Of a DNA stretch of 55,798 nt, positions 6,272-49,864 are shown one piece after another. The stretch is from the NCBI GenBank assembly GCA_016932575.1, contig JAFGCO010000023.1:1-55798 (forward strand), in the 5' to 3' direction. Position 1 is the first letter of the stretch; every line of letters starts with the position of its first letter. Under the pieces are notes generated by a model. The model ran no database searches. It worked only from the letters and a program-made list of their open reading frames with translations, and was not told where the DNA came from. The translations under genes were made by a program, and so were the position numbers. This DNA is from a bacterium (GTDB lineage Bacteria > Zhuqueibacterota > QNDG01 > JAFGCO01).

Positions 6272-8695
6272 ATGCACCAAATTTTCAGGATACTCAATTT
6301 TTTCATCATTATGTCTGAATTTCTGTGCAGTTTTTCTAATAACAAAATGAATCAGTTTGGCAGTATTCACGGAACAGTTCAGGATGCAGTTACACATGCT
6401 CCTCTTATCTCCGTTAATATTACTGTTGATTCTGCATATACCGGTACTGCTTCGAATCATCGCGGAGAATTTTTTCTTGATAAAATTCCTCCTGGCATGC
6501 ATATGCTTCAGTTTTCGATGATCGGCTATGAAAAATTTTTAATAAAAAATATCCGTGTTGAATCCGGACGGTCAACATTCAGGTCCATTAATATGACTCC
6601 CCTGGTTCTGAAAAGTGAAAATATTAAAATTGTCGCCAACCGCTATGACAGGATCAGCGATTATAATGAGATTGCTTTAAAGATTCCCGTTCCTATCCAG
6701 GAAATCCCGGTCAGTGTGGATATTATTTCAAGGGAGATGATTCAGGATCAAAGCAGTCGAACCTTGAGCGATGCATTAAAATATACAAGCAGCATTAATG
6801 TTCAGGGAAATCTGGGTTCACAGGATTATTTTCTGATCCGGGGATTTGAATCGAATTCTTCGGGTTTGATCCTGCTGGATGGTGTAGATGAACCGGACGT
6901 CAGTTTATATCAATTTTATGGCTTCGGATTTTTTGACCTGTATAACATTGAACGGATCGAAGCACTGAAAGGGCCATCGGCATTTCTCTATGGAAGCAAT
7001 ACACTTTCAGGGACCGTCAATTTGTCTATGAAACGACCGCTTTTTGATAATTTTTCCGAGATTGCATTCCATATCGGATCTTATCAGGACAAGCGAACAT
7101 CCCTTGATTTAGGCGTTGCTGATCAAAACTCCAAATGGGCCTTTCGATTTAATGGATTACTGCATGAATATGAGCATTATCGAAATCCGGAAAAAAACCG
7201 CAAAATAGCAGTCAATCCTGCTTTTACGTGGAAATTCGGCAATCAAACCCGGTTGACATTTTACTATGAATATATTGACAGTGAAATACAACCCGATACG
7301 GGGATCCCGCTTTATTCGGATGGAAATTCCTGGATGATACCAAAAATTTCAGATCAAACGAACTATCAGTCATCTTTTGATCTGTTCAGTCAATCCTTTC
7401 AAAAATTCAGAATTCAGTTTCAATCGCATATTAAAAACAGCATTCAGATAAAAAATCAATTCTTCAGCAGTTATTTAAACGGGCGTACCAACCTGACAAT
7501 GTCTCATATGCCGTTCCTTGACAATGATATGCAATGGAAATTAACCCGTCATCTTTATGCAGCTGATGAATCTCAATTTTTTACAGGCAATCAAACCGAT
7601 ATACATTTCAAGCTGCATACCGGACAGATCAAACATCAGCTGGTCGCGGGATTTGAAATACGTAAATCTCATATTCAATCGAACAAAGGCATAAAAATGC
7701 TGAATCATATACTGTATCTGTCTCCCGACAATGACACAGATCTCACAGAGGATGACATTAATCGGTGCATGACCATCGGAACTGAAACCGATTTGTACAA
7801 TCTGGCACCTTATGTGGCGGCTTACACCACTGTTTCCCATCATTTTAAAATTATGTCCGGCGGAAGAATGGATTTCATTGATTTTTCGACAAACCGTCAA
7901 AATACTCCTTTTGATTACATCAGCCGATATGTCACCAGCCAACCTGCACCCTATTCAAATGGTTTCAAACGGTTCAGTCCGACTTTCGGATGTGTTTATC
8001 TCAATTCCGAAGAACTCTCTTTTTACACAAACATCGGGCAATCTTATGCATTTACTGCCTCTTCCTATGATCAGCCAGAAAAAAGCTCGCAGTTTGAAAT
8101 GGGATTTAAATATCAGGGAAAATCAAAACGATTTCGAATGTCTGCTGCCATCTATCGGTTAAATAAAGACCATATCACCATTCCGATTCAAATTCCTTCA
8201 GAAGGAACAGTTAAATCGTCAAGCGGAAGCCAACGCTCTGAAGGTCTGGAAATTGAAATTCAAACTCAGCCTTTCGATAATTTATACTGCTTTATTAATT
8301 ATGCCTATACCGACGCATATCTAACCAACTATCAGGCCTATATCCAAACCAAACAGCGCGTGACAGAATTGTTGAACTTTTCTGATAATTATGCTCCCTT
8401 TGTTCCCTGTCACCTGTTCAATCTCTGGATGACAAAATTCATTAATGACCGCTGGGGATTTGGTTTTGGGATTTGTCACACGGGCGACCAATACATCTCT
8501 ATCGAAAATGACTTTAAATTAACAGGGTTCTGGACGTTCAATGCCATGCTGAGCTTTCAGATAAATCATTTAAAATTTCAGTACAATTTAAAAAATTTAT
8601 CAGACACAAAATTCTACATGAGAGGGCTGGGGCCCAATAGCGTCATTCCGGGCAATCCCAGAGAAATGAATGCTTCTATCATTGTATCATTATAA
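6272..8695 (+). CDS. TonB-dependent siderophore-type receptor
   Basis: An 807-residue outer-membrane active transporter. A hydrophobic N-terminal leader is followed by a carboxypeptidase-regulatory-like domain at about 32-112 (GSIHGTVQDAVTHAPL, TASNHRGEF, GYEKF). The plug follows, with IPVSVDIISREMI, LSDALKYTSSINV and FLIRGFES, the order seen in FhuA/FpvA-like ferric-siderophore receptors, and IERIEALKGPSAFLYG closes it. The rest is a beta-barrel ending in SIIVSL after a PGNPREM segment, also typical of this group. The start has GGGGAG about 12 bases upstream, so a slightly later Met (6311) is possible. No TonB or ABC importer genes are nearby. Iron uptake is inferred from family resemblance. 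Confidence 0.9.
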   Translation: MHQIFRILNFFIIMSEFLCSFSNNKMNQFGSIHGTVQDAVTHAPLISVNITVDSAYTGTASNHRGEFFLDKIPPGMHMLQFSMIGYEKFLIKNIRVESGRSTFRSINMTPLVLKSENIKIVANRYDRISDYNEIALKIPVPIQEIPVSVDIISREMIQDQSSRTLSDALKYTSSINVQGNLGSQDYFLIRGFESNSSGLILLDGVDEPDVSLYQFYGFGFFDLYNIERIEALKGPSAFLYGSNTLSGTVNLSMKRPLFDNFSEIAFHIGSYQDKRTSLDLGVADQNSKWAFRFNGLLHEYEHYRNPEKNRKIAVNPAFTWKFGNQTRLTFYYEYIDSEIQPDTGIPLYSDGNSWMIPKISDQTNYQSSFDLFSQSFQKFRIQFQSHIKNSIQIKNQFFSSYLNGRTNLTMSHMPFLDNDMQWKLTRHLYAADESQFFTGNQTDIHFKLHTGQIKHQLVAGFEIRKSHIQSNKGIKMLNHILYLSPDNDTDLTEDDINRCMTIGTETDLYNLAPYVAAYTTVSHHFKIMSGGRMDFIDFSTNRQNTPFDYISRYVTSQPAPYSNGFKRFSPTFGCVYLNSEELSFYTNIGQSYAFTASSYDQPEKSSQFEMGFKYQGKSKRFRMSAAIYRLNKDHITIPIQIPSEGTVKSSSGSQRSEGLEIEIQTQPFDNLYCFINYAYTDAYLTNYQAYIQTKQRVTELLNFSDNYAPFVPCHLFNLWMTKFINDRWGFGFGICHTGDQYISIENDFKLTGFWTFNAMLSFQINHLKFQYNLKNLSDTKFYMRGLGPNSVIPGNPREMNASIIVSL

Positions 8696-8969
8696 AACAG
8701 GCAAATCATTATCCAGACTCCGGTATTTCAAAGCAGAAAATATTTCCCAGACGACCGCATCATGATCGAAAGGCTGATGATGAAACCTTCCAACCTGATT
8801 TGACAGTCAACTGCTGCTTTTAGACAGACGGCTTGTAATCATTGGCCCAAAAGGCACGCTGTTTTAAACATCATCCCCCAAGCTTATCGCTTTTTCTTTT
8901 TGGCAGGCCTGCGCGCCATTTTATTTGGCGGGAACGAGATACCCGGCATTCGAAAAATGATTAATCTTC

Positions 8970-9030
8970 TACAATTGTAAAAAAATACTTGACAATCTTC
9001 TACAATTGTAGTATTTTTTTTACACATGTA
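8970..9030 (+). promoter_or_regulatory. Three TACA-N2-TGTA operator dyads of the BlaI-type repressor
   Basis: Three 10-bp palindromes with TACA and TGTA arms and two central bases lie at 8970-8979, 9001-9010 and 9021-9030. The first two are part of a 17-bp direct repeat (8963-8979 and 8994-9010) with a 31-bp period, about three helical turns. BlaI/MecI repressors are known to bind TACA/TGTA dyads, so autoregulation by the adjacent repressor is a strong inference. The second site fills the promoter spacer. Confidence 0.82.
8989..9017 (+). promoter_or_regulatory. Sigma-70-type promoter for the BlaI/M56 operon
   Basis: A perfect -35 TTGACA (8989-8994) is followed after exactly 17 bases by a TATTTT -10 (9012-9017). 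The spacer is occupied by operator dyad 9001-9010, so repressor binding would block RNA polymerase. The remaining gap 8696-8962 upstream holds no gene I can support. Confidence 0.78.
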
Positions 9031-9046
9031 TAAAAAGGAGTCTGTT

Positions 9047-9439
9047 ATGAAATTATCCGATGCCGAGTGGCATCTCATGAACGCCTTATGGGAAGATTAT
9101 CCTGCCACAGCCCGTGATATCATGAAACGCCTGGATAGCCGGATTCAATGGGCCTATACCACCGTTAAAACCATGCTGACCCGCCTGGTAGGCAAAAATG
9201 CAATGTCTGAAGAAAAGAAAGGCAACACCAGCTTTTACACGCCGCTGGTTTCCCAGAAAAAAGCACAGCGCAGCGCACTGAAAAGTCTGGTTGACAAAGT
9301 ACTCGGAGGCACGGTTGAGCCCATCATGCACTATCTGGTTGAAGAAAAAAAATTGACATCCGAAGAACGTCACAAGCTGATCAGGCTTCTGGAAGACATG
9401 GATCATACAGCTGAGGAGAACAAAAATGAACCTGATTAA
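9047..9439 (+). CDS. BlaI/MecI-family transcriptional repressor
   Basis: The 130-residue product matches the penicillinase repressor family: a winged-helix N-terminal half with LSDAEWHLMNALW, TARDIMKRL and WAYTTVKTMLTRLV, and a C-terminal dimerisation part rich in charge. The family binds TACA/TGTA dyads as a dimer and is inactivated by proteolysis triggered by a BlaR1-type membrane protease. The start at 9047 is chosen because AAGGAG (9035-9040) sits just upstream; an earlier in-frame ATG at 9026 lies inside the third operator and has no ribosome site. Its end overlaps the M56 protease gene by 14 bases, so both are one operon. Confidence 0.93.
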   Translation: MKLSDAEWHLMNALWEDYPATARDIMKRLDSRIQWAYTTVKTMLTRLVGKNAMSEEKKGNTSFYTPLVSQKKAQRSALKSLVDKVLGGTVEPIMHYLVEEKKLTSEERHKLIRLLEDMDHTAEENKNEPD

Positions 9440-12400
9440 TGATTTCGCACATGGCTGGTGGCAGTGGATGGGATCCATGTTCTGGCAGGTCGGTTTACTC
9501 ATTGCCATCATCAGTGGGATTGATTTTCTCATCAGAAAATGGGCATGGCCCCAGATACGTTATGGACTGTGGTTGGTTGTATTACTGAAACTATTACTGC
9601 CCCCCTCCTGCTCATCACCGGTCAGCCTCATCTCCCGGGCACAGCCTCAAATCCATGAGAATATTAACAAAACACTGCTCCTGGATCAAATCGGCCGTGA
9701 ACAATGGCCGGTTGCCGATTCTGACCATTCAGCGGACACTCCTGTTACGGATAATCCTGTGGCCGGGAATCCGGTATTGACTGAAAATCCACAGGAATTG
9801 AAATCCCCCTCACGGGTTTCGAAAACAGAAACAGCCCTTTCATGGCAGAGCATTTCCCTGATCGTCTGGCTGACCGGTATTGTCATTTTTTCAATAATTC
9901 TGCTTCTTAAAATGTCCCTTCTAAGGCACTGGCACGATCAGCAGCAAGAAAAATCCATTCCATCCTGGTTTCATGAGATGCTGGTTGAAACCGCATCCGC
10001 CTTTCAAATTAATCATCTGCCAGCTATTGTTTTTCACAATCAGGTGAAAACACCGGCCGTTTATGGTCTGTTCAAACCTGTTATGCTGCTGCCGACAGAT
10101 TATTTTAAACAGTTAACCAAAAATGACGCCCGACATGTACTGCTGCATGAACTGGCCCATTTAAAACGGGGAGACCTTTGGATGCATGGACTCTGCCTGT
10201 TTTTACAAATTATGTATTGGTTCAATCCCCTGTTAATCTGGGTTCGCAGACAAATGAAAATGATCAGAGAAATTTGCTGCGACCTGACTGTCGCCAATGT
10301 ATTAAAAGAGGATACCATGGCATACCGGCAAACATTACTCAACACAGCCAGGGAAATGCTGACAGAAAACATGTCTCCGGGACTCGGACTGCTGGGTGTA
10401 TTTGAAGATCCGTTCCGGCTCATTCCCCGGTTGAAATGGCTTGAAAAAAACACCTGGAAAAGAAGAAATCTGATCTTAATAACCTCTCTGCTGATCAGTT
10501 TGACTATATCAGCCGCAATTGTTCCCATGGCTGCGATGAAACCTGTGAAAATGCTGTCCCGGGGCTCGGTAAGCACAGAATTTTCCATTGGGGAACCGGT
10601 AACAATAAATCCAGATTCTGTTGAACTTCATATTAAATTGAAAAAGGTGGATGACCTCTACGCTGCGGTTCTGCCCATGTGCGGATTGTCCACATCCCAG
10701 GATCAAACCGCTGCCATCATCCTTCAAAAGCTGCTGACCGAACAAAAAATCAAACCTAAGGGCAGCTTGTTCGCACGATTTTTCAGCGATCCTGAACAGG
10801 TGCCGCCGGAAAAACATATCTGGGAGATCGGTGTTCCGGTCAAGCCGGGCACCCGGGTGAAAGAACCCTTGAAAACCATCCGTATCAATAAAATGCAGGT
10901 TGCCACTGCTTCACTGACCGGGATGAAGGGCACCGAGGCCATATGGAACCGGTTTATTCAGCAAATCCAGGATGAAGGGCTGGTCCCCTGTTTTCCCCAT
11001 GCGTATGAAATTTATAAGGCACCGCCTGAAAACAAACCCTTCTGGTGGCATACGGAAATGCAGCTGCAGGCTTTCCGGCCGGATAAAGGGTATCCGGGTC
11101 TTAATATCTCCTATAAGAAATCGGATCCTAAAACCGCAGTGATCCTGCCTGTGTACGGCGATTATTACAAACATGCGAAAGTCCTTGAACAGCTCAATAA
11201 TTATCTGAAAACAAATAATATAAAAACCGCCGGACCGGCATTCGGCCTGTACTATACACCCGAAACCGAAACCCACCGGGACCATCTTTACTGGGAGATC
11301 GGCATTCCGGTCAAAGAGGCTGTGAAAGTCGAGGCCCCGTACGAACTTCGGCAGATTGAATCCCATCTGGTCGCATCGGCCTGTTTTCAAGGTCCCTTTA
11401 ATATGGAACACCCCTGGAGCCCATTTCTGATGCAGCTGATCCTTGACGGGTATCTGCCCGTCAATCCCGGTGTTGAAATCTGGAAAGACCATGGCAGAAA
11501 TTCCACGACTGAGCTGCAAATCGGTGTGATCAGACTGGGTGATACAGGCAACTTGATCCAAAACTTGACTGAAGATATTGTCAAATCAGTAACCGGTACA
11601 GCCAGATCGAAAAATGTGGCGGATGACAAAAAACAAATGGGCATATATGCCCTTGAAAAAATACATCCCCAATGGATGATCATTCAGCGGATGAAAGGTT
11701 CCTATGAGCAGGCGCCCGTCATTTTCAGCAAACTTGATGATTACTGCAAAGCTGTTGGAATACAAAAAGCCGGTGATCCTGTCATCCGGCAGTATAACAA
11801 TGCGGATATTACCCCCGTATACGAATTACTCTGGGATGCGGGCTATGTGATCAAAGAAAAAGTCAATGTGGCAGCCCCCTTCGAGGTCATCCAGGTCCCG
11901 GAAAAAGAAATTATCCGTCATAAAGTCAAACAGGGGCACGACACGCATCATATGGCGCAGCAGCTCTCGGCCTGGTTTCTGCACTATAATTACCGGCCCG
12001 GTGTCCCTACCCATATTGTCTGGACCCACGGACTGTTCAGCGTCGATAATCCGCAGCCTCCTCTGGAAGTGTGGCAGGAGGTTCTTCCAATGGATCCACC
12101 CTATGAACCTGTCAATCTGGAATACTGTCATGAGTCTTCTTCCAAAAAGGCGTTGCTTCTGCCGATGAAAGGCTCCCGATCCAAAGAACTGGAAGCCATC
12201 AGACAGGTTCAGGCCTATGTAAGGAAAAATAAAATCGTCACCACAGGATCTCCTTTTATCCGGTATCTGGAAAATGATGAAATCGTACCGGAGGAGAAAA
12301 TGCGATGGCAGGCCGGTGTCATTCTGGATAATGATACAAAAATTCAAATTTCAGATCCCTATATGATCGAATGGTTTTCAGGAGGCGCTTTCTGTTCAGA

Positions 12401-12575
12401 AAGGATTGAGAGTGATCAACTGGAACTCGAGACAAATCAATGGCTGGCTTTTGTATTGAATTTTACCATGAATGGATACACAGCAAAAGGCTACCCGATA
12501 AAAATCGTGCATCAGTCTAAACAGAAACCATATGATCTGGAGTTATGCTGGACTGTTGACTGTCAAACCAGGTAA
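9426..12575 (+). CDS. BlaR1-type M56 metalloprotease fused to four GyrI-like ligand-binding domains
   Basis: A 1049-residue membrane protein. Residues 1-370 are an M56 module: membrane helices near 20-37, 45-60, 142-162 and 347-368, the zinc-protease motif HELAH at 241-245, and a conserved REICCDL at 281-287. Where BlaR1/MecR1 has a penicillin-binding sensor, this protein has four tandem domains of about 150 residues each (about 400-550, 558-705, 738-890, 896-1047). They share repeated landmarks: a WEIGVPV/WEIGIPV/WDAGYVI/WQAGVIL strand and a LP-x-x-G segment, as in GyrI-like (AraC effector-binding) small-molecule domains. The likely role is to sense a ligand outside the membrane and to cleave or release the BlaI-type repressor encoded just upstream. 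GAGGAG precedes the start. The ligand is unknown. Confidence 0.87.
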   Translation: MNLINDFAHGWWQWMGSMFWQVGLLIAIISGIDFLIRKWAWPQIRYGLWLVVLLKLLLPPSCSSPVSLISRAQPQIHENINKTLLLDQIGREQWPVADSDHSADTPVTDNPVAGNPVLTENPQELKSPSRVSKTETALSWQSISLIVWLTGIVIFSIILLLKMSLLRHWHDQQQEKSIPSWFHEMLVETASAFQINHLPAIVFHNQVKTPAVYGLFKPVMLLPTDYFKQLTKNDARHVLLHELAHLKRGDLWMHGLCLFLQIMYWFNPLLIWVRRQMKMIREICCDLTVANVLKEDTMAYRQTLLNTAREMLTENMSPGLGLLGVFEDPFRLIPRLKWLEKNTWKRRNLILITSLLISLTISAAIVPMAAMKPVKMLSRGSVSTEFSIGEPVTINPDSVELHIKLKKVDDLYAAVLPMCGLSTSQDQTAAIILQKLLTEQKIKPKGSLFARFFSDPEQVPPEKHIWEIGVPVKPGTRVKEPLKTIRINKMQVATASLTGMKGTEAIWNRFIQQIQDEGLVPCFPHAYEIYKAPPENKPFWWHTEMQLQAFRPDKGYPGLNISYKKSDPKTAVILPVYGDYYKHAKVLEQLNNYLKTNNIKTAGPAFGLYYTPETETHRDHLYWEIGIPVKEAVKVEAPYELRQIESHLVASACFQGPFNMEHPWSPFLMQLILDGYLPVNPGVEIWKDHGRNSTTELQIGVIRLGDTGNLIQNLTEDIVKSVTGTARSKNVADDKKQMGIYALEKIHPQWMIIQRMKGSYEQAPVIFSKLDDYCKAVGIQKAGDPVIRQYNNADITPVYELLWDAGYVIKEKVNVAAPFEVIQVPEKEIIRHKVKQGHDTHHMAQQLSAWFLHYNYRPGVPTHIVWTHGLFSVDNPQPPLEVWQEVLPMDPPYEPVNLEYCHESSSKKALLLPMKGSRSKELEAIRQVQAYVRKNKIVTTGSPFIRYLENDEIVPEEKMRWQAGVILDNDTKIQISDPYMIEWFSGGAFCSERIESDQLELETNQWLAFVLNFTMNGYTAKGYPIKIVHQSKQKPYDLELCWTVDCQTR

Positions 12576-43189: not shown

Positions 43190-45313
43190 ATGAATAAATA
43201 TTTAAAATCAAATGCTGCGATAATCAAAGGGATCATTATTGGTTTTCTCCTTCCGCTTCCTGTGTTCGGATATATCGGACCCGGAGCCGGTTTTGCTCTC
43301 GTCTCATCTCTCTTTACCCTGCTGATTTCTTTTATACTCGCGTTCTTTTCTTTGCTGACTTTTCCCGTCCGCATGCTTTTCCGATTTATTAAGAACCGGA
43401 ATTACTTTAAAAAGCTGAATATCAGACGTGTTGTCATTGTCGGTCTTGATGGTCTTGATTATGAATTGACCCAAAAATATATGAACGGGGAATTTTTAAC
43501 CAATTTTAAAAAACTGCAGCAAATCGGAGGATTTCAAAAACTCAAAACCACCTATCCGTCGATTTCTCCGGTTGCCTGGTCAAGTTTTGCAACAGGGGTG
43601 AATCCGGGAAAACACAACATATTTGATTTTCTCGTTTCGAATCCCCGTACCTATTTGCCGGAACTCTCTTCTTCCCAGGTCAAACCCTCAAAAAAGAACA
43701 AAAAATTCGGTAAATACCAAATTCCCCTTGGAAAAGCGAAGATTTCGTTCCTGCGAAAAAGCAAATCATTCTGGTCGATTCTCGGGGAGCATGGAATATT
43801 CAGTCACATCATTCGTATTCCAATCACATTTCCCCCGGAAAAATTTTACGGATCCATGCTCTCAGCCATGTGTACCCCGGACCTGCGGGGCACACAGGGA
43901 TCTTTCACATTTTATTCAGCAGCGCCCCGCGATCATTTTAACGCAATCGGCGGCAACCATATTCAATTTTCTCAGAACAATGGAACGCTTTCATCATATC
44001 TGGTCGGTCCGGAAAACGCATTTCGAACAAACGGTGAATCGGTCCGTCTTCCGTTTTCATTAAAATTAAAAAATAATTTGTCCGCTGACCTTCGCATTAA
44101 AAACAAACGGGTCGAACTGAAACTGAAGGAATTTTCTCCCTATATACCGGTTTCATTTCCCTTTGGCTTTGGTGTTTCTGCAAAGGGAATATGTCAGTTT
44201 TATCTAAAACAGATAACACCTGAAGTCCAGCTTTATGTTTCTCCCATTCAGATCGATCCTGAAAAACCGGCATTGCCCATTTCGCATCCGAAATTCTTTG
44301 CGACATATCTGGCGAAAATGCTCAACAGATATAATACGCTCGGTTTGTCCGAAGACACATGGGCACTGAATGAACAGGTTCTTGATGACAAAGCGTTTTT
44401 AAAACAGGCTTATCAAATTCATGAGGAACGTGAGAAACAGTTTTTTCATGTGCTTGACAAAACCAAACGGGGTGTATGTGCCTGTGTATTTGACGGAACA
44501 GACCGCATCCAGCACATGTTCTTCCGGTACCTGGTGAAAGATCATCCGGCCCATTGTGAACAGGACGAATCTCTTCAGCATGCGATTCGGAATATCTATC
44601 AGAGATCGGATGAACTGGTTGGACGTGTTTTAGAAAAGATTGATGACGATACGGTTCTTTTTGTTATCTCTGACCATGGATTTAAATCATTCAAACGCGG
44701 CATTAATTTAAATTCCTGGCTGCACCAGAATGGTTATTTAACGTTGAAAGAAGACAGATTTGATCAGGACTATTTTCAAAATGTGGATTGGGAAAACACA
44801 AAAGCGTACGCCGTGGGTTTGGCAGGTATCTATTTAAATCTGAAGGGACGTGAACATCTCGGAACGGTTTCTCCCGGAGAAGCGGAAAAGGCATTGAAAG
44901 ATGAAATCATCTGTAAACTCTCGGGTTTGAAAGATCCCGACCGCAATGTGATCTCAATTCGTCGTGTGATCGATAAATATGATGTGATGAAAGGGCCTTA
45001 CATAAAGAATGCACCCGATCTGATTATCGGCTATCATGACGGATACCGAATTTCATGGGACGGAGCGGTCGGTAAAACTACCCAAACGGTTTTCGAGGAT
45101 AACACCAAAGCCTGGAGCGGCGATCATGGGATCGATCCCGAGCTCGTACCGGGTGTTATTTTTTCAAATCAAAAATTTCAATCCGAGGAAATCGGTTTAA
45201 TGGATCTCGCACCCACTGTTCTGAATTTATTTAAGGTCCCAATCCCGAAATACATGGATGGAAAGCCAATATCCATGAATGAGATAAAAACACCATCTCA
45301 TACAAAAAATTAG
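43190..45313 (+). CDS. Membrane-anchored alkaline-phosphatase-superfamily phosphodiesterase
   Basis: A 707-residue protein. Two N-terminal hydrophobic segments (about 12-62, GYIGPGAGFALVSSLFTLL) anchor it. The catalytic domain then shows GLDGLD (metal Asp87), SPVAWSSFATG with Ser126 in the place of the nucleophile of nucleotide pyrophosphatases, DGTDRIQHMFFRY (Asp and His metal ligands), SDHGFKSF, and WSGDHGIDPELVPGV. This fits the type I phosphodiesterase group; substrates could be phosphate mono- or diesters of lipids or glycans. It begins a run of five genes with two more superfamily members. The extra middle part (about 270-400) has no motif I recognise. Confidence 0.85.
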   Translation: MNKYLKSNAAIIKGIIIGFLLPLPVFGYIGPGAGFALVSSLFTLLISFILAFFSLLTFPVRMLFRFIKNRNYFKKLNIRRVVIVGLDGLDYELTQKYMNGEFLTNFKKLQQIGGFQKLKTTYPSISPVAWSSFATGVNPGKHNIFDFLVSNPRTYLPELSSSQVKPSKKNKKFGKYQIPLGKAKISFLRKSKSFWSILGEHGIFSHIIRIPITFPPEKFYGSMLSAMCTPDLRGTQGSFTFYSAAPRDHFNAIGGNHIQFSQNNGTLSSYLVGPENAFRTNGESVRLPFSLKLKNNLSADLRIKNKRVELKLKEFSPYIPVSFPFGFGVSAKGICQFYLKQITPEVQLYVSPIQIDPEKPALPISHPKFFATYLAKMLNRYNTLGLSEDTWALNEQVLDDKAFLKQAYQIHEEREKQFFHVLDKTKRGVCACVFDGTDRIQHMFFRYLVKDHPAHCEQDESLQHAIRNIYQRSDELVGRVLEKIDDDTVLFVISDHGFKSFKRGINLNSWLHQNGYLTLKEDRFDQDYFQNVDWENTKAYAVGLAGIYLNLKGREHLGTVSPGEAEKALKDEIICKLSGLKDPDRNVISIRRVIDKYDVMKGPYIKNAPDLIIGYHDGYRISWDGAVGKTTQTVFEDNTKAWSGDHGIDPELVPGVIFSNQKFQSEEIGLMDLAPTVLNLFKVPIPKYMDGKPISMNEIKTPSHTKN

Positions 45314-45322
45314 GGTGATATC

Positions 45323-47314
45323 ATGAGTACAAAGCATATCAATCGCAGAGACTTCCTCAAAACAGCCGGGGCTGCCGGTATCGCAGTCTCCTTGGCGTCT
45401 CCGGTATTTTCTGTACCCAATCTGGTTAATTCCAAAACCAGTAAAAAGGTGTTCGTCCTTGGTATCGATGGTATGGATCCGAATCTGCTTCGGACATTCA
45501 TCAGGCGCGGAGAAATGCCGACATTTGAACGTTTCATATCATCACACCACTTCGGAGCCCTGCAGACAACGGTGCCCCCTCAAAGTCCAGTTGCCTGGTC
45601 GAGTTTTATTTCCGGATGCAATCCGGGCATGCATGGTGTTTATGATTTTATCCATCGTGATCCCAAAACCTTTATTCCCTATCTGTCTACATCCAGGACA
45701 TTTGAATCGGTTAAAAGTCTGCGTCTTGGCAAATGGCGCATTCCAATCAAAGGCGGACACATTGATTTATTGAGAAAAGGCCCCGCTCTCTGGGAAACGC
45801 TCGAAGATCACCATATTCCGGCAACTTTCTACAAGCTGCCTGCCAATTTTCCTGTCGAAAATTCAAAATCGCATATGATAAGCGGCATGGGAACGCCGGA
45901 TTTACTTGGAACCTATGGAACATACACCCTGTTTGCAGAAGAACCCGCGGCATTCCCTGAAGACGCAGCTGGGGGTCGGTTGATGAAGGTTCATTTTCAG
46001 GATCATACAGCCATAAGCCGGATTGAGGGCCCGGAAAATACCATGCATTCGGACCGAAAACCGGCATCTGTTGATTTTCACATTTCAAGAGATCCCTGGC
46101 AAAACACGGTATTATTGGAAGTGCAGAAGCACAAACTCCATTTAAAACAGGGCGAATGGAGTGAATGGATTCCGCTTGAATTCGAGCTTTTACCGCTAAT
46201 CGCCAGCGCCCACGGCATGGTCAGGTTTTACATGCAGCAGGTGCATCCGTATTTCAGGCTGTATATGTCTCCGATCAACATCGATCCTGAGAATCCGGAT
46301 GTTCCGATATCATCCGAAGATCATTATTCAGAACAGGTATCCAAAGCAATCGGGCGCTATTATACTCAGGGATTTCCTGAGGACACGAAAGCCCTGTCGC
46401 ACGGAACATTCAACGATGAAGAATTCCTGTCGCAATCCAGAATTGTATTCGAAGAACGAATGCATGCTTTTGATCATGAATTGAACCATTTTAAAGAAGG
46501 CCTGTTTTTCTTCTATTTTTCCAGTATCGATCAAAACACACATATGATGTATCATAATATGGATCCCAATCACCCGAAATATAATCCGAAAAGCAGTCCT
46601 GATGTTAAAAATGCGGTTTATTCGTTTTACCAGAAAATGGACCAGGTCTTAAAACAAACTCTGGATAAAATGGACAGCCGCAGCACTCTGGTGATCCTTT
46701 CAGATCATGGTTTTGCCCCCTTCGGCCGTGAATTTCATTTAAGCACCTGGCTGGCACAAAACGGCTGGACCGCAATCACAGAGCCGAAAAAGATACATGA
46801 AAGCACCTTTTATGATTACGTGGACTGGAATCGAACCAAGGCCTATGCCATGGGGCTGAACGGAATTTATTTAAATTTAATGGGCCGGGAATTCCAGGGA
46901 GCTGTCAGTTTATATGAATATGAATCTCAGAAAGAAAAATTAATCCGGGAACTCGAAGCTGTTCGCGATCCGTTAACAGGACAAAAAATCATTACGAAAG
47001 CCTACGATGCAAAAAAAACCTATCGGGGTGATCAGCTGGATATCGCTCCGGATATCATTGTGGGTTATAATTGGGGATACCGCATCTCGGATGAAGCAGC
47101 TTTGGGAAAATTTCCTGAGGGCTTTTTTGATTACCGGAAGGACAAATGGGCCGCGGACCATTGTATGGCTCCGACGGTTGTACCCGGCGTTTTGCTGGCC
47201 AATAAACCGGTGAAACATCCCTCTCCGGGAATTTGGGATCTGGCACCCTCGATTATTCAGCAATTCGGTCTGATCCCGCCGGAGCAAATGGACGGAAAAT
47301 CAATCTTTACGTAA
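45323..47314 (+). CDS. Tat-exported alkaline-phosphatase-superfamily enzyme
   Basis: A 663-residue paralogue of the preceding protein. NRRDFLKTAGAAG (7-19) is a clear Tat leader with Ala-rich hydrophobic core, so it reaches the periplasm folded. The catalytic set is GIDGMD (Asp49), SPVAWSSFISG with Ser88 as the likely nucleophile, SSIDQNTHMMYH, LSDHGFAPFG and WAADHCMAPTVVPGV. The shared middle motif YRLYMSPINIDPEN-like text (here FRLYMSPINIDPENP) matches the first paralogue. It starts 9 bases after it. Substrate unknown; the pair differ in how they are placed (membrane anchor versus Tat leader). Confidence 0.87.
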   Translation: MSTKHINRRDFLKTAGAAGIAVSLASPVFSVPNLVNSKTSKKVFVLGIDGMDPNLLRTFIRRGEMPTFERFISSHHFGALQTTVPPQSPVAWSSFISGCNPGMHGVYDFIHRDPKTFIPYLSTSRTFESVKSLRLGKWRIPIKGGHIDLLRKGPALWETLEDHHIPATFYKLPANFPVENSKSHMISGMGTPDLLGTYGTYTLFAEEPAAFPEDAAGGRLMKVHFQDHTAISRIEGPENTMHSDRKPASVDFHISRDPWQNTVLLEVQKHKLHLKQGEWSEWIPLEFELLPLIASAHGMVRFYMQQVHPYFRLYMSPINIDPENPDVPISSEDHYSEQVSKAIGRYYTQGFPEDTKALSHGTFNDEEFLSQSRIVFEERMHAFDHELNHFKEGLFFFYFSSIDQNTHMMYHNMDPNHPKYNPKSSPDVKNAVYSFYQKMDQVLKQTLDKMDSRSTLVILSDHGFAPFGREFHLSTWLAQNGWTAITEPKKIHESTFYDYVDWNRTKAYAMGLNGIYLNLMGREFQGAVSLYEYESQKEKLIRELEAVRDPLTGQKIITKAYDAKKTYRGDQLDIAPDIIVGYNWGYRISDEAALGKFPEGFFDYRKDKWAADHCMAPTVVPGVLLANKPVKHPSPGIWDLAPSIIQQFGLIPPEQMDGKSIFT

Positions 47315-47415
47315 TACTGCCGGGCTTTTAAAAAAATCCGGTCAGCCAGAATAAAAATAATGTATTGAAAATTCGGTCTTTTTATGTTTCACATCATTCA
47401 TTAAAGGATTGCATT

Positions 47416-47610
47416 ATGGCAATAAAAAAAATCAAGCTGGAAAAAGATCTGATCGACAGAGCCAGTAAACTTGCCGAATTGGCGGGATACTCTTCAGTGG
47501 ATGAATTTATCACACATATGATTGAAAAAGAACTCGCTCAACTGGATTCGGGTGACGATTCAATTGAAGAAGTTGAAAAACGGTTGCAGGGTCTGGGTTA
47601 TATTTCATAA
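47416..47610 (+). CDS. Small helix-type protein with LGY tail
   Basis: A 64-residue protein; the start at 47416 is chosen over an upstream Met because MAIKKIKLEKDLIDRAS begins a ribbon-helix-helix-like pattern (basic strand, then ASKLAELAGYSSVDEFITHMIEKEL). The end is acidic, then EVEKRLQGLGYIS. A tail of the form R-L-x-x-L-G-Y is often seen at the C-terminus of phosphatase/sulfatase-superfamily proteins, so it may be a common recognition tail for the cluster. DNA binding is not shown; the fold call is a guess from pattern. It lies between the phosphatase genes and the membrane-protein gene. Confidence 0.7.
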   Translation: MAIKKIKLEKDLIDRASKLAELAGYSSVDEFITHMIEKELAQLDSGDDSIEEVEKRLQGLGYIS

Positions 47611-47625
47611 GGAAAAAGGAATCGA

Positions 47626-48441
47626 ATGCGTCTTTTTATTGATGGATTGAATGTTCTTTTCAAATGGTTGTTCTTCCCTTTTTTGCTTCTTGGAAAAACG
47701 TTCGGATTATTACTTTTTTCCATACTCATCGGAATTGGATTGCTGGCCCTGTTTAAAAAAGTATCCAACCAGGGTGCCATTCAGCGCGTTAAAAACAGAA
47801 TCAGCGGTCATATTCTAGAACTGCGTCTGTATCAGGATGATCTGGGACTGACATTAAAAGCAATCGGACGAACCTTTTACAATAATCTGCTTTATCTGCG
47901 AACTGTGTTGCTCCCCATGCTCATTTTCATCCTTCCTGTTTTACTTATCCTGATTCAATTATCGAAAATCTACGAATACTCGCCTTTCCGGCCCGATCAG
48001 TCGATAATGCTCTCCACAGAGGTTATGCCTTCCGTTTCCATGCAAAAAGTGACACTGGAAACACCGGAGTCTGTTTTCCAGGAGATTCCTCCGGTACGGA
48101 TCATCGGCCAAAATCAAATCTACTGGAGACTGAGAGCCAAACAGCAGGGGATCTGGCGCCTCAAATTTCATTACGAAGATCAAACAGAAATCATAAAACT
48201 ATATGTCGGTACCAAAACGGACAGAATTGCACCGGTTCAAATGAAAAGTCACCTGGCTGCACTTTTTCATCCTGTGGACAAAACACTGCCCGCAGATTCA
48301 TTTTTAACCAATGTGCATATTCAATATCCTTCTTCCACATTCTCAATATTTGGAATAAAGATTCACTGGCTCCTATTCTTTTTCATTATTTCAGTAGCAG
48401 CGGGTTTCGCATTTAAAAACCCGCTTGGCGTTGAATTATAA
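47626..48441 (+). CDS. Membrane protein of the phosphatase cluster
   Basis: A 271-residue protein with hydrophobic helices at about 14-45, 85-110 and 245-265. Between the first two is a charged segment (RVKNRISGHILELRLYQDDLG) here described by its start RVKNRISGH; the topology of helix, charged linker, helix resembles Oxa1/DUF106-type membrane proteins only in outline. The part between the second and third helix (about 125-240) is strand-rich and would lie outside the membrane. It is placed directly between the small protein and the third phosphatase gene, 10 bases before the latter. Perhaps a scaffold or membrane partner of the phosphatases. Family not identified. Confidence 0.7.
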   Translation: MRLFIDGLNVLFKWLFFPFLLLGKTFGLLLFSILIGIGLLALFKKVSNQGAIQRVKNRISGHILELRLYQDDLGLTLKAIGRTFYNNLLYLRTVLLPMLIFILPVLLILIQLSKIYEYSPFRPDQSIMLSTEVMPSVSMQKVTLETPESVFQEIPPVRIIGQNQIYWRLRAKQQGIWRLKFHYEDQTEIIKLYVGTKTDRIAPVQMKSHLAALFHPVDKTLPADSFLTNVHIQYPSSTFSIFGIKIHWLLFFFIISVAAGFAFKNPLGVEL

Positions 48442-48451
48442 GGACAACCCA

Positions 48452-49864
48452 ATGACCCTTTTTTCTCGATTTAAAAAACGCAAAAAAGTCTTTATTATCG
48501 GTTTGGACTGTATGGCACCCGACCTTGTGTTCGATAAATATGCATCGTATCTGCCCAATCTCTCTTATTTAAAAGAAAACGGACTATGGGGAGATCTGGA
48601 ATCTTCGATCCCTGCGATCACAGTACCTGCCTGGTCCTGCATGACCACCTCAAAAGATCCGGGAGAGCTGGGATTTTATGGCTTCAGAAATCGCAAAGAT
48701 TATTCCTACGAAAATATGGCCATTGCCATGGGCAATGCTGTTCAGGAAAAACGTATCTGGCATTATCTTGGCGAAGCAGGGCTTGACAGTATCGTTTTAG
48801 GTGTTCCTCAGACCTATCCGGTACGACCCATTAAAGGAAATCTGGTTTCCGGCTTTTTAACCCCCAATCAAAACTGTGATTTTGCCTATCCCCCGCTTTT
48901 AAAAAAGGAAGTCCTGAAACTGATCCCCGGGTATTCTTTTGACGTCAAAGATTTCAGAACCAATGAAAAGGATCGTTTGATTGAACAAATATACAAAATG
49001 ACCGATCAGCACTTTCAATTGATCGATTATATGCTCGATAATAAGCCCTGGGATTTCTTTATGTCGGTTGAAATCGGTGTAGACAGAATGCATCATGCCT
49101 TTTGGCACTGCCAGGATCCCGAACATCCGAAATATGAAAAATTTAATCCTTATGAAAATTCCATTTTGGAGTATTATCAATATATTGACCAAAAAATCGG
49201 TCATTGGTTATCGGGGCTTGATCAAAACACAATCATTCTTGTGGTATCCGACCATGGAGCTCAGCGCATGGATGGCGGTCTTTGTGTGAATGAATGGTTA
49301 TGGAAAAATGGCTATCTGGCCTTTAAGAAGGATCCGAAACCCGGTCAGATAAAAAAGATCGAAGAATTTGAAATTGACTGGAGCCGGACCCGGGCCTGGG
49401 GAAGCGGAGGGTATTACGGACGGATATTCATGAATGTGAAAGGAAGGGAACCCGGCGGGATTATTCTGCAAACTGAATATGAAAAAGAGCGGATTCAGTT
49501 AAAAGAGACTTTGGAAGCGATTCCCGATCCGTATGGAAAGCCCATGAATACGAAAATATTTTTTCCTGATCAAATTTACCGGGAAACGAAAAATATTCCC
49601 CCTGATATGATTGTATATTTTGGAAATCTGTATTGGCGGTCTGTCGGCTCTCTGGGGTATGACAGCTGGTATACGGATGAAAATGACACAGGACCGGACT
49701 CCTGCAACCACGCCCAAAACGGTATCTTTATATTATTTGATCCTTCTGATATACGCAAAAGTCAGCCCAGGCGCCGCGCACATCTGATGGATATCACGCC
49801 TACAGTTTTGAAAAAAATGAATGTCCGTACTCCAAAAGATTTAGGAGGAATCATTATAAAATAA
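48452..49864 (+). CDS. Cytoplasmic-type alkaline-phosphatase-superfamily enzyme
   Basis: A 470-residue member of the same superfamily as 43190 and 45323 but without leader or membrane anchor. GLDCMAPD (Asp19), ITVPAWSCMTTS with Thr57 as the likely nucleophile, EIGVDRMHHAFWHC, VSDHGAQRMDGG and the final His segment DSCNHAQNGIF carry the metal and catalytic residues. The ATG at 48452 follows AAGGAC; a TTG at 48425 lies within the preceding gene and is rejected. It closes the five-gene run. Threonine instead of serine as nucleophile is normal for phosphodiesterases of this group. Confidence 0.88.
   Translation: MTLFSRFKKRKKVFIIGLDCMAPDLVFDKYASYLPNLSYLKENGLWGDLESSIPAITVPAWSCMTTSKDPGELGFYGFRNRKDYSYENMAIAMGNAVQEKRIWHYLGEAGLDSIVLGVPQTYPVRPIKGNLVSGFLTPNQNCDFAYPPLLKKEVLKLIPGYSFDVKDFRTNEKDRLIEQIYKMTDQHFQLIDYMLDNKPWDFFMSVEIGVDRMHHAFWHCQDPEHPKYEKFNPYENSILEYYQYIDQKIGHWLSGLDQNTIILVVSDHGAQRMDGGLCVNEWLWKNGYLAFKKDPKPGQIKKIEEFEIDWSRTRAWGSGGYYGRIFMNVKGREPGGIILQTEYEKERIQLKETLEAIPDPYGKPMNTKIFFPDQIYRETKNIPPDMIVYFGNLYWRSVGSLGYDSWYTDENDTGPDSCNHAQNGIFILFDPSDIRKSQPRRRAHLMDITPTVLKKMNVRTPKDLGGIIIK

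Follow-up and report, generated by a model that had tools for sequence, protein, structure and literature searches.

Introduction

The BlaR1/BlaI and MecR1/MecI systems of Staphylococcus and Bacillus licheniformis pair a repressor with a transmembrane sensor-protease and carry TACA-N2-TGTA operators at the pair's own promoter. Their sensor is a penicillin-binding domain resembling class D beta-lactamases, and a beta-lactamase or PBP2a gene lies under the operator. How BlaR1 becomes activated is still debated. Here, we describe a BlaI-type repressor gene and an M56 metalloprotease gene that form a similar operon in a bacterial stretch of 55,798 nucleotides (the window, contig C39 of a 4.41-Mb draft genome), in which four GyrI-like domains stand in place of the penicillin-binding sensor. 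The nearest named carriers of this M56-GyrI protein are metagenome bins of "candidate division KSB1". We consider it fairly probable that the pair is a BlaR1/BlaI-type transmembrane sensor-protease/repressor switch whose penicillin sensor has been replaced by four extracytoplasmic GyrI-like domains arranged in two pairs.

GyrI-like domains are known from SbmC, BmrR, EcmrR, CTR107, CtaZ, and STM3175, where they are free or fused to DNA-binding domains and mostly cytoplasmic, whereas here they are placed in tandem on a transmembrane protease. All the parts are known; their combination and the apparent closed loop were not found in the open-access literature. The original prediction, made from the sequence of the window, knew of no described system with this architecture, and no M56-GyrI protein was found in the open-access literature either, a coverage to which most subscription papers and preprints do not belong.

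Results

The M56 Protease Retains the Landmarks of BlaR1

The M56 protein matched the Pfam family Peptidase_M56 (PF05569, E = 2.6e-43). Its score against BlaR1 was only 34 bits (over residues 139-308), and residues 11-309 of the full-length model aligned with the BlaR1 structure with a Z-score of 12.2. The roles of the BlaR1 residues HExxH, D210, E242xxxD, Y261, F284, and R294 have been described (PMC9834060). Their counterparts here are H241-H245 (the HELAH motif already pointed out by the original prediction), D250, E282/D286, Y300, F326, and R335, with F326 (self-cleavage) and R335 (swapped helix) being assigned by loop position and not by residue alignment. The catalytic landmarks were invariant or nearly so across 11 aligned sequences, in which F326 and R335 were invariant. 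In a sensorless relative (G075), the self-cleavage Phe was lost (GLIED instead of GVFEE). Judging from the sequence, the protein would be, like BlaR1 and MecR1, an M56 gluzincin of four helices in which no catalytic landmark is missing, with the self-cleavage Phe and a partner repressor that has the cleavage position.

Four membrane helices were predicted, and hydropathy together with positive-inside charges placed both the N-terminus and the array of GyrI domains on the outer side, which suggests that the array is an extracytoplasmic, probably periplasmic, sensor. As to the penicillin-binding sensor, BlaR1 models matched only residues 26-310, far below the cut-off, and the C-terminus beyond was GyrI-like, in line with the sensor replacement initially proposed.

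Four GyrI-Like Domains, Two Canonical and Two Diverged

The profile search originally suggested for the C-terminal region gave a clear answer: the whole M56 protein matched Pfam GyrI-like (PF06445) with 49.3 bits (E = 8.4e-13; cut-off 26), and also Cass2 (E = 1.6e-7). Taken singly, the four domains (D1 to D4, residues ~400-1046) scored under the PF06445 cut-off, D3 and D4 being the furthest from it, but they were nonetheless profile-homologous. Two-sequence BLAST recovered their mutual homology (D1-D2, 8e-16; D1-D4, 5e-9; D2-D3, 2e-10; D3-D4, 1e-7), and profile comparison linked D3 to D2 (probability 99.6%) and to D4 (99.5%).

Structure prediction for each domain had also been proposed. The models of D4 and D2 aligned with Escherichia coli SbmC/GyrI (1jyh; Z-scores of 19.1, 2.1 Å over 149 residues, and 18.4, 1.9 Å over 144 residues, respectively) and that of D1 with BrlR (5xbw_A; Z-score of 14.6, 3.1 Å over 144 residues), whereas D3 had no structure match of its own and was assigned by its profile and by the order of its strands and helices, which in the model is that of the other domains. 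The fold of two beta-alpha-beta-beta modules was thus found in D1, D2, and D4 by structure and in D3 by element order. D1-D2 were confidently modeled in the full-length protein (predicted local distance difference test, pLDDT, about 80-92); the D3-D4 model had a mean pLDDT of 84.7 from only six sequences. Neither D3 nor D4 retrieved any match when its sequence profile was searched against the PDB.

In lin2189, the pocket glutamate typical of GyrI proteins is E185, two residues ahead of Y187 (PMC5684135). By motif and alignment, its probable E-x-aromatic counterparts are E528-I-Y530 in D1 and E684-I-W686 in D2; looked for by alignment, the glutamate and the motif were absent from D3 and D4. The "four pockets" of the original prediction were therefore overstated, and the array seems better described as two canonical domains followed by two diverged ones.

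Outside the operon, free GyrI proteins with a signal peptide (called by eye) are common in the phylum. The sensor profiles matched nine of them, mostly with E-values of 1e-7 to 1e-19, versus 0.02 or worse, counted as a non-match, for the cytoplasmic AraC-GyrI protein of the host genome. The sensor domains have their closest relatives among the phylum's secreted GyrI proteins, an argument for a periplasmic sensor. One secreted-looking GyrI-like protein of the host genome (G000, contig C24:89293-89742; L126:2279-2836, minus strand) is encoded beside LolA_like (PF17131) and MMPL genes, and signal-peptide proteins like it were seen in many genomes of the phylum. Similar secreted-looking proteins are present outside the phylum too. 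In G338, from another phylum, contig C182:8-4240 matches the GyrI sensor profile at four distinct places over about 4 kb.

Distribution and Exchange of the Sensor

A search for other M56-GyrI fusions beside BlaI genes, as had been advised, recovered the fusion in 8 of 82 genomes from the KSB1 group, the phylum to which the window belongs. Outside the phylum, no long open frame with the sensor profile was found among 388 genomes (about 300 of them outside; Bacteroidota were not searched separately), nor was the fusion seen there in a second contig scan biased to this M56 clade. The M56 clade itself was well supported (99/98) and gathered receptors with four GyrI domains, two GyrI domains, two GyrI domains plus DUF4412, two GyrI domains plus DUF4440, and DUF4412 alone. 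This is one M56 clade with its sensor swapped among members. Sensor exchange, the likeness of the array to secreted GyrI proteins, and the operon-unique operator-promoter described below are results that go beyond the original prediction.

The DUF4440 sensor domain was homologous to an adjacent signal-peptide DUF4440 gene (E = 2e-17), which echoes the resemblance of the BlaR1 sensor to beta-lactamases. The latter gene lies right after the M56-GyrI-DUF4440 receptor gene (L044:2979-3449). For the receptor of G064, Pfam gave neither GyrI-like nor DUF4440 at the chosen limit; its GyrI pair rests on alignment and on a sensor-profile match (E = 9e-146, with a profile built with G064 itself), and its DUF4440 was assigned by resemblance both to the G058 fusion and to the neighboring gene for a secreted DUF4440 protein. 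Two receptor genes were found in tandem in G039 and G043. In G003 and G008, the segment separating the two GyrI pairs was considered as a SPOR domain, which was rejected because the matches were sub-threshold only. The host genome also carries two more BlaI-M56 pairs (G000 contig C7:112466-113679 and 184737-186045), whose M56 position in the tree is distant from the GyrI clade.

Repressor and Operator

The repressor matched Penicillinase_R (E = 8.2e-33), and its best PDB relatives were MecI and BlaI. Its gene overlaps the M56 gene by 14 bases (9426-9439), as first noticed. We placed its start most likely at 9047 (MKLSDAEW, preceded by GGAG) rather than at 9026, the start of the first open reading frame (ORF) list, because dyad 3 covers the ATG of the latter. 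The residue corresponding to the BlaI P1' cleavage residue, Phe102, was Phe or Tyr in all seven readable repressors of the group.

The three promoter dyads originally reported, one of them filling the -35/-10 spacer, were recovered (Table 1); no other exact TACA-N2-TGTA dyad lies in the window, where 0.32 would be expected. The -35 box TTGACA (8989-8994) and the -10 box TATTTT (9012-9017) are separated by 17 bases. In all eight readable promoters of the group, a dyad filled the 17-base spacer between a -35 resembling TTGACA and a -10 resembling TATATT. Since dyad mismatches caused a scan for exact pairs to miss the promoters of some relatives, we used instead a composite motif of 29 bases, 22 of them fixed, with a tolerance of up to 3 mismatches. 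Every one of the ten genomes that carry this M56 clade had it, nine as a single copy and G070 with a second, weak copy; the reversed control gave 0 matches. The motif sits at the BlaI-M56 operon wherever contigs permit checking. In G008 its contig is separate from most of the receptor gene but carries the gene start; in G064 it is also on a contig separate from most of the receptor gene, and linkage is assumed.

Across the host genome, exact paired dyads occurred at this promoter only, and single exact dyads were not in excess (43 versus 69 for the reversed-pattern control). Forty of them lie beyond the three of the window and, among the sites looked at, most were inside ORFs. The only promoter-like one lay at a HipA-type operon, which was rejected as a repressor target and taken as chance. 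No third gene was conserved next to BlaI-M56 in the loci read. The circuit looks self-contained because the composite motif is at the operon in every carrier and essentially nowhere else; an autoregulated and self-contained circuit is the simplest reading.

Table 1. Features of the BlaI-M56-GyrI operon (window coordinates).
Feature	Position	Strand	Remarks
Operator dyad 1	8970..8979	.	TACAATTGTA; 5' of -35
Promoter TTGACA-N17-TATTTT	8989..9017	+	Matches composite motif TTGACANNNTTCTACANNTGTAGTATNTT; single copy in genome
Operator dyad 2	9001..9010	.	TACAATTGTA; within -35/-10 spacer, same position in 8 promoters
Operator dyad 3	9021..9030	.	TACACATGTA; close to expected transcription start
BlaI/MecI-type repressor, 130 aa	9047..9439	+	Tyr96 at BlaI P1' position (Phe102); Phe in several relatives
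M56 metalloprotease with four GyrI-like domains, 1049 aa	9426..12575	+	
M56 membrane/protease domain, residues 24-310	9495..10355	+	HELAH 241-245, D250, E282/D286, Y300
Putative self-cleavage loop	10395..10448	+	F326 (~BlaR1 P1' Phe284), R335 (~R294)
Last transmembrane helix (predicted), residues 349-367	10470..10526	+	Remainder after helix predicted periplasmic
GyrI-like D1, residues 400-556	10623..11093	+	Pocket motif E528-I-Y530
GyrI-like D2, residues 559-705	11100..11540	+	Pocket motif E684-I-W686
GyrI-like D3, residues 739-890	11640..12095	+	Pocket Glu absent
GyrI-like D4, residues 898-1046	12117..12563	+	Pocket Glu absent

The genes flanking the operon, a TonB-dependent receptor gene just upstream (6272-8695) and a methyladenine glycosylase gene downstream, were both rejected as parts of the system, neither being conserved in the relatives read. 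Elsewhere in the window, three similar-looking phosphodiesterase/nucleotide-pyrophosphatase-type genes, recognized by eye only, are clustered at 43190-49864 (43190-45313, 45323-47314, and 48425-49864).

Discussion

The switch that we propose would work as follows. At rest, BlaI dimers bound to the three dyads, including the one between the -35 and -10 boxes, would keep their own operon silent. The ligand, which the GyrI family suggests to be an amphipathic or hydrophobic compound, would enter the periplasm and bind the array, most likely at D1 and D2. By analogy with BlaR1, binding would switch on the cytoplasm-facing zinc protease, whose cut at the conserved Phe/Tyr position of the repressor would free the operon from repression. 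The detectable output would be the operon itself, that is, additional receptor, joined in some relatives by a second receptor or by a secreted protein that is encoded next to it and shares homology with a sensor domain. The operon would then be autoregulated, and its output may be a self-amplified binder or the control of unrecognized targets.

Several points weigh against this switch. D3 and D4 are devoid of the pocket glutamate, and the GyrI domains described to date are, to our knowledge, mostly cytoplasmic. The M56 and last-helix regions were poorly predicted in the full-length model (pLDDT ~50 or less), which leaves the dimer and the signaling geometry as conjecture. More degenerate target operators may also exist elsewhere in the genome.

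Unlike the BlaR1 and MecR1 systems, no beta-lactamase or PBP2a gene was found under the operator. We tentatively suggest, as a possibility and not as the expected outcome, that the loop is closed: a receptor protease that binds drugs or lipids in the periplasm would control only itself, its sensor being also its effector, and the sensor would be a swappable cassette (GyrI, DUF4412, or DUF4440) on an unchanging BlaR1-type chassis. A possible closed loop with a sensor that is also a binder recalls the autoregulated resistance of the TipA/AlbA type, but TipA activates transcription directly, whereas the link here would be the proteolysis of a separate repressor.

Minimal autoregulated resistance systems are known (PMC7762955, PMC10414762). 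An extension of the proposed switch by one step would make the receptor a self-inducing sponge and its own effector, derepression providing more GyrI domains to neutralize the compound in the periplasm. Two absences would fit, that of other composite operators in the genome and that of a third gene shared among the loci read, as would the payload of four GyrI domains per transcript, the second receptor in tandem in G039 and G043, and the structural likeness to STM3175 and CtaZ; there are also precedents in STM3175, which acts against albicidin via gene amplification, and in TipA/AlbA-type proteins, via autoregulation. We nevertheless find it rather doubtful, since a membrane protease makes a costly sponge, the pockets of D3 and D4 have diverged, and operators several bases off the consensus would escape our scan.

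It seems unlikely that the array reads the state of the envelope (lipids, lipoproteins, or peptidoglycan) and not a foreign compound. Where the ligands of GyrI family members are known, they are mostly aromatic or cationic drugs, and the weak SPOR-like segment on the stalk of relatives is below the cut-off and missing from the window protein, although DUF4412 is carried by the same stalk in relatives and the secreted GyrI gene of this genome adjoins LolA_like and MMPL genes. A haem or tetrapyrrole sensor, with SOUL/HEBP-like domains tied to the upstream TonB-dependent receptor gene, is very unlikely: SOUL/HEBP structures do align (Z-scores of 11-15), but SbmC, EcmrR, and CtaZ score higher, and the neighboring receptor is not conserved in the relatives read. 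Finally, it is highly improbable that the GyrI domains are enzymes of the cyclopropanoid hydrolase type degrading a periplasmic compound, since, despite a fold common to lin2189-type hydrolases and the E-x-aromatic motif retained in D1 and D2, no second catalytic Glu or aromatic cage was traced and the first Glu is absent from D3 and D4.

The proposed sensor-protease switch bears on more than this operon. A conserved protease chassis with exchanged sensors provides a natural set showing which parts of BlaR1 are generic, and the set of receptors suggests that the chassis could accept other sensors. The array further points to extracytoplasmic GyrI domains as a class of binding proteins that has received little notice in uncultured bacteria.

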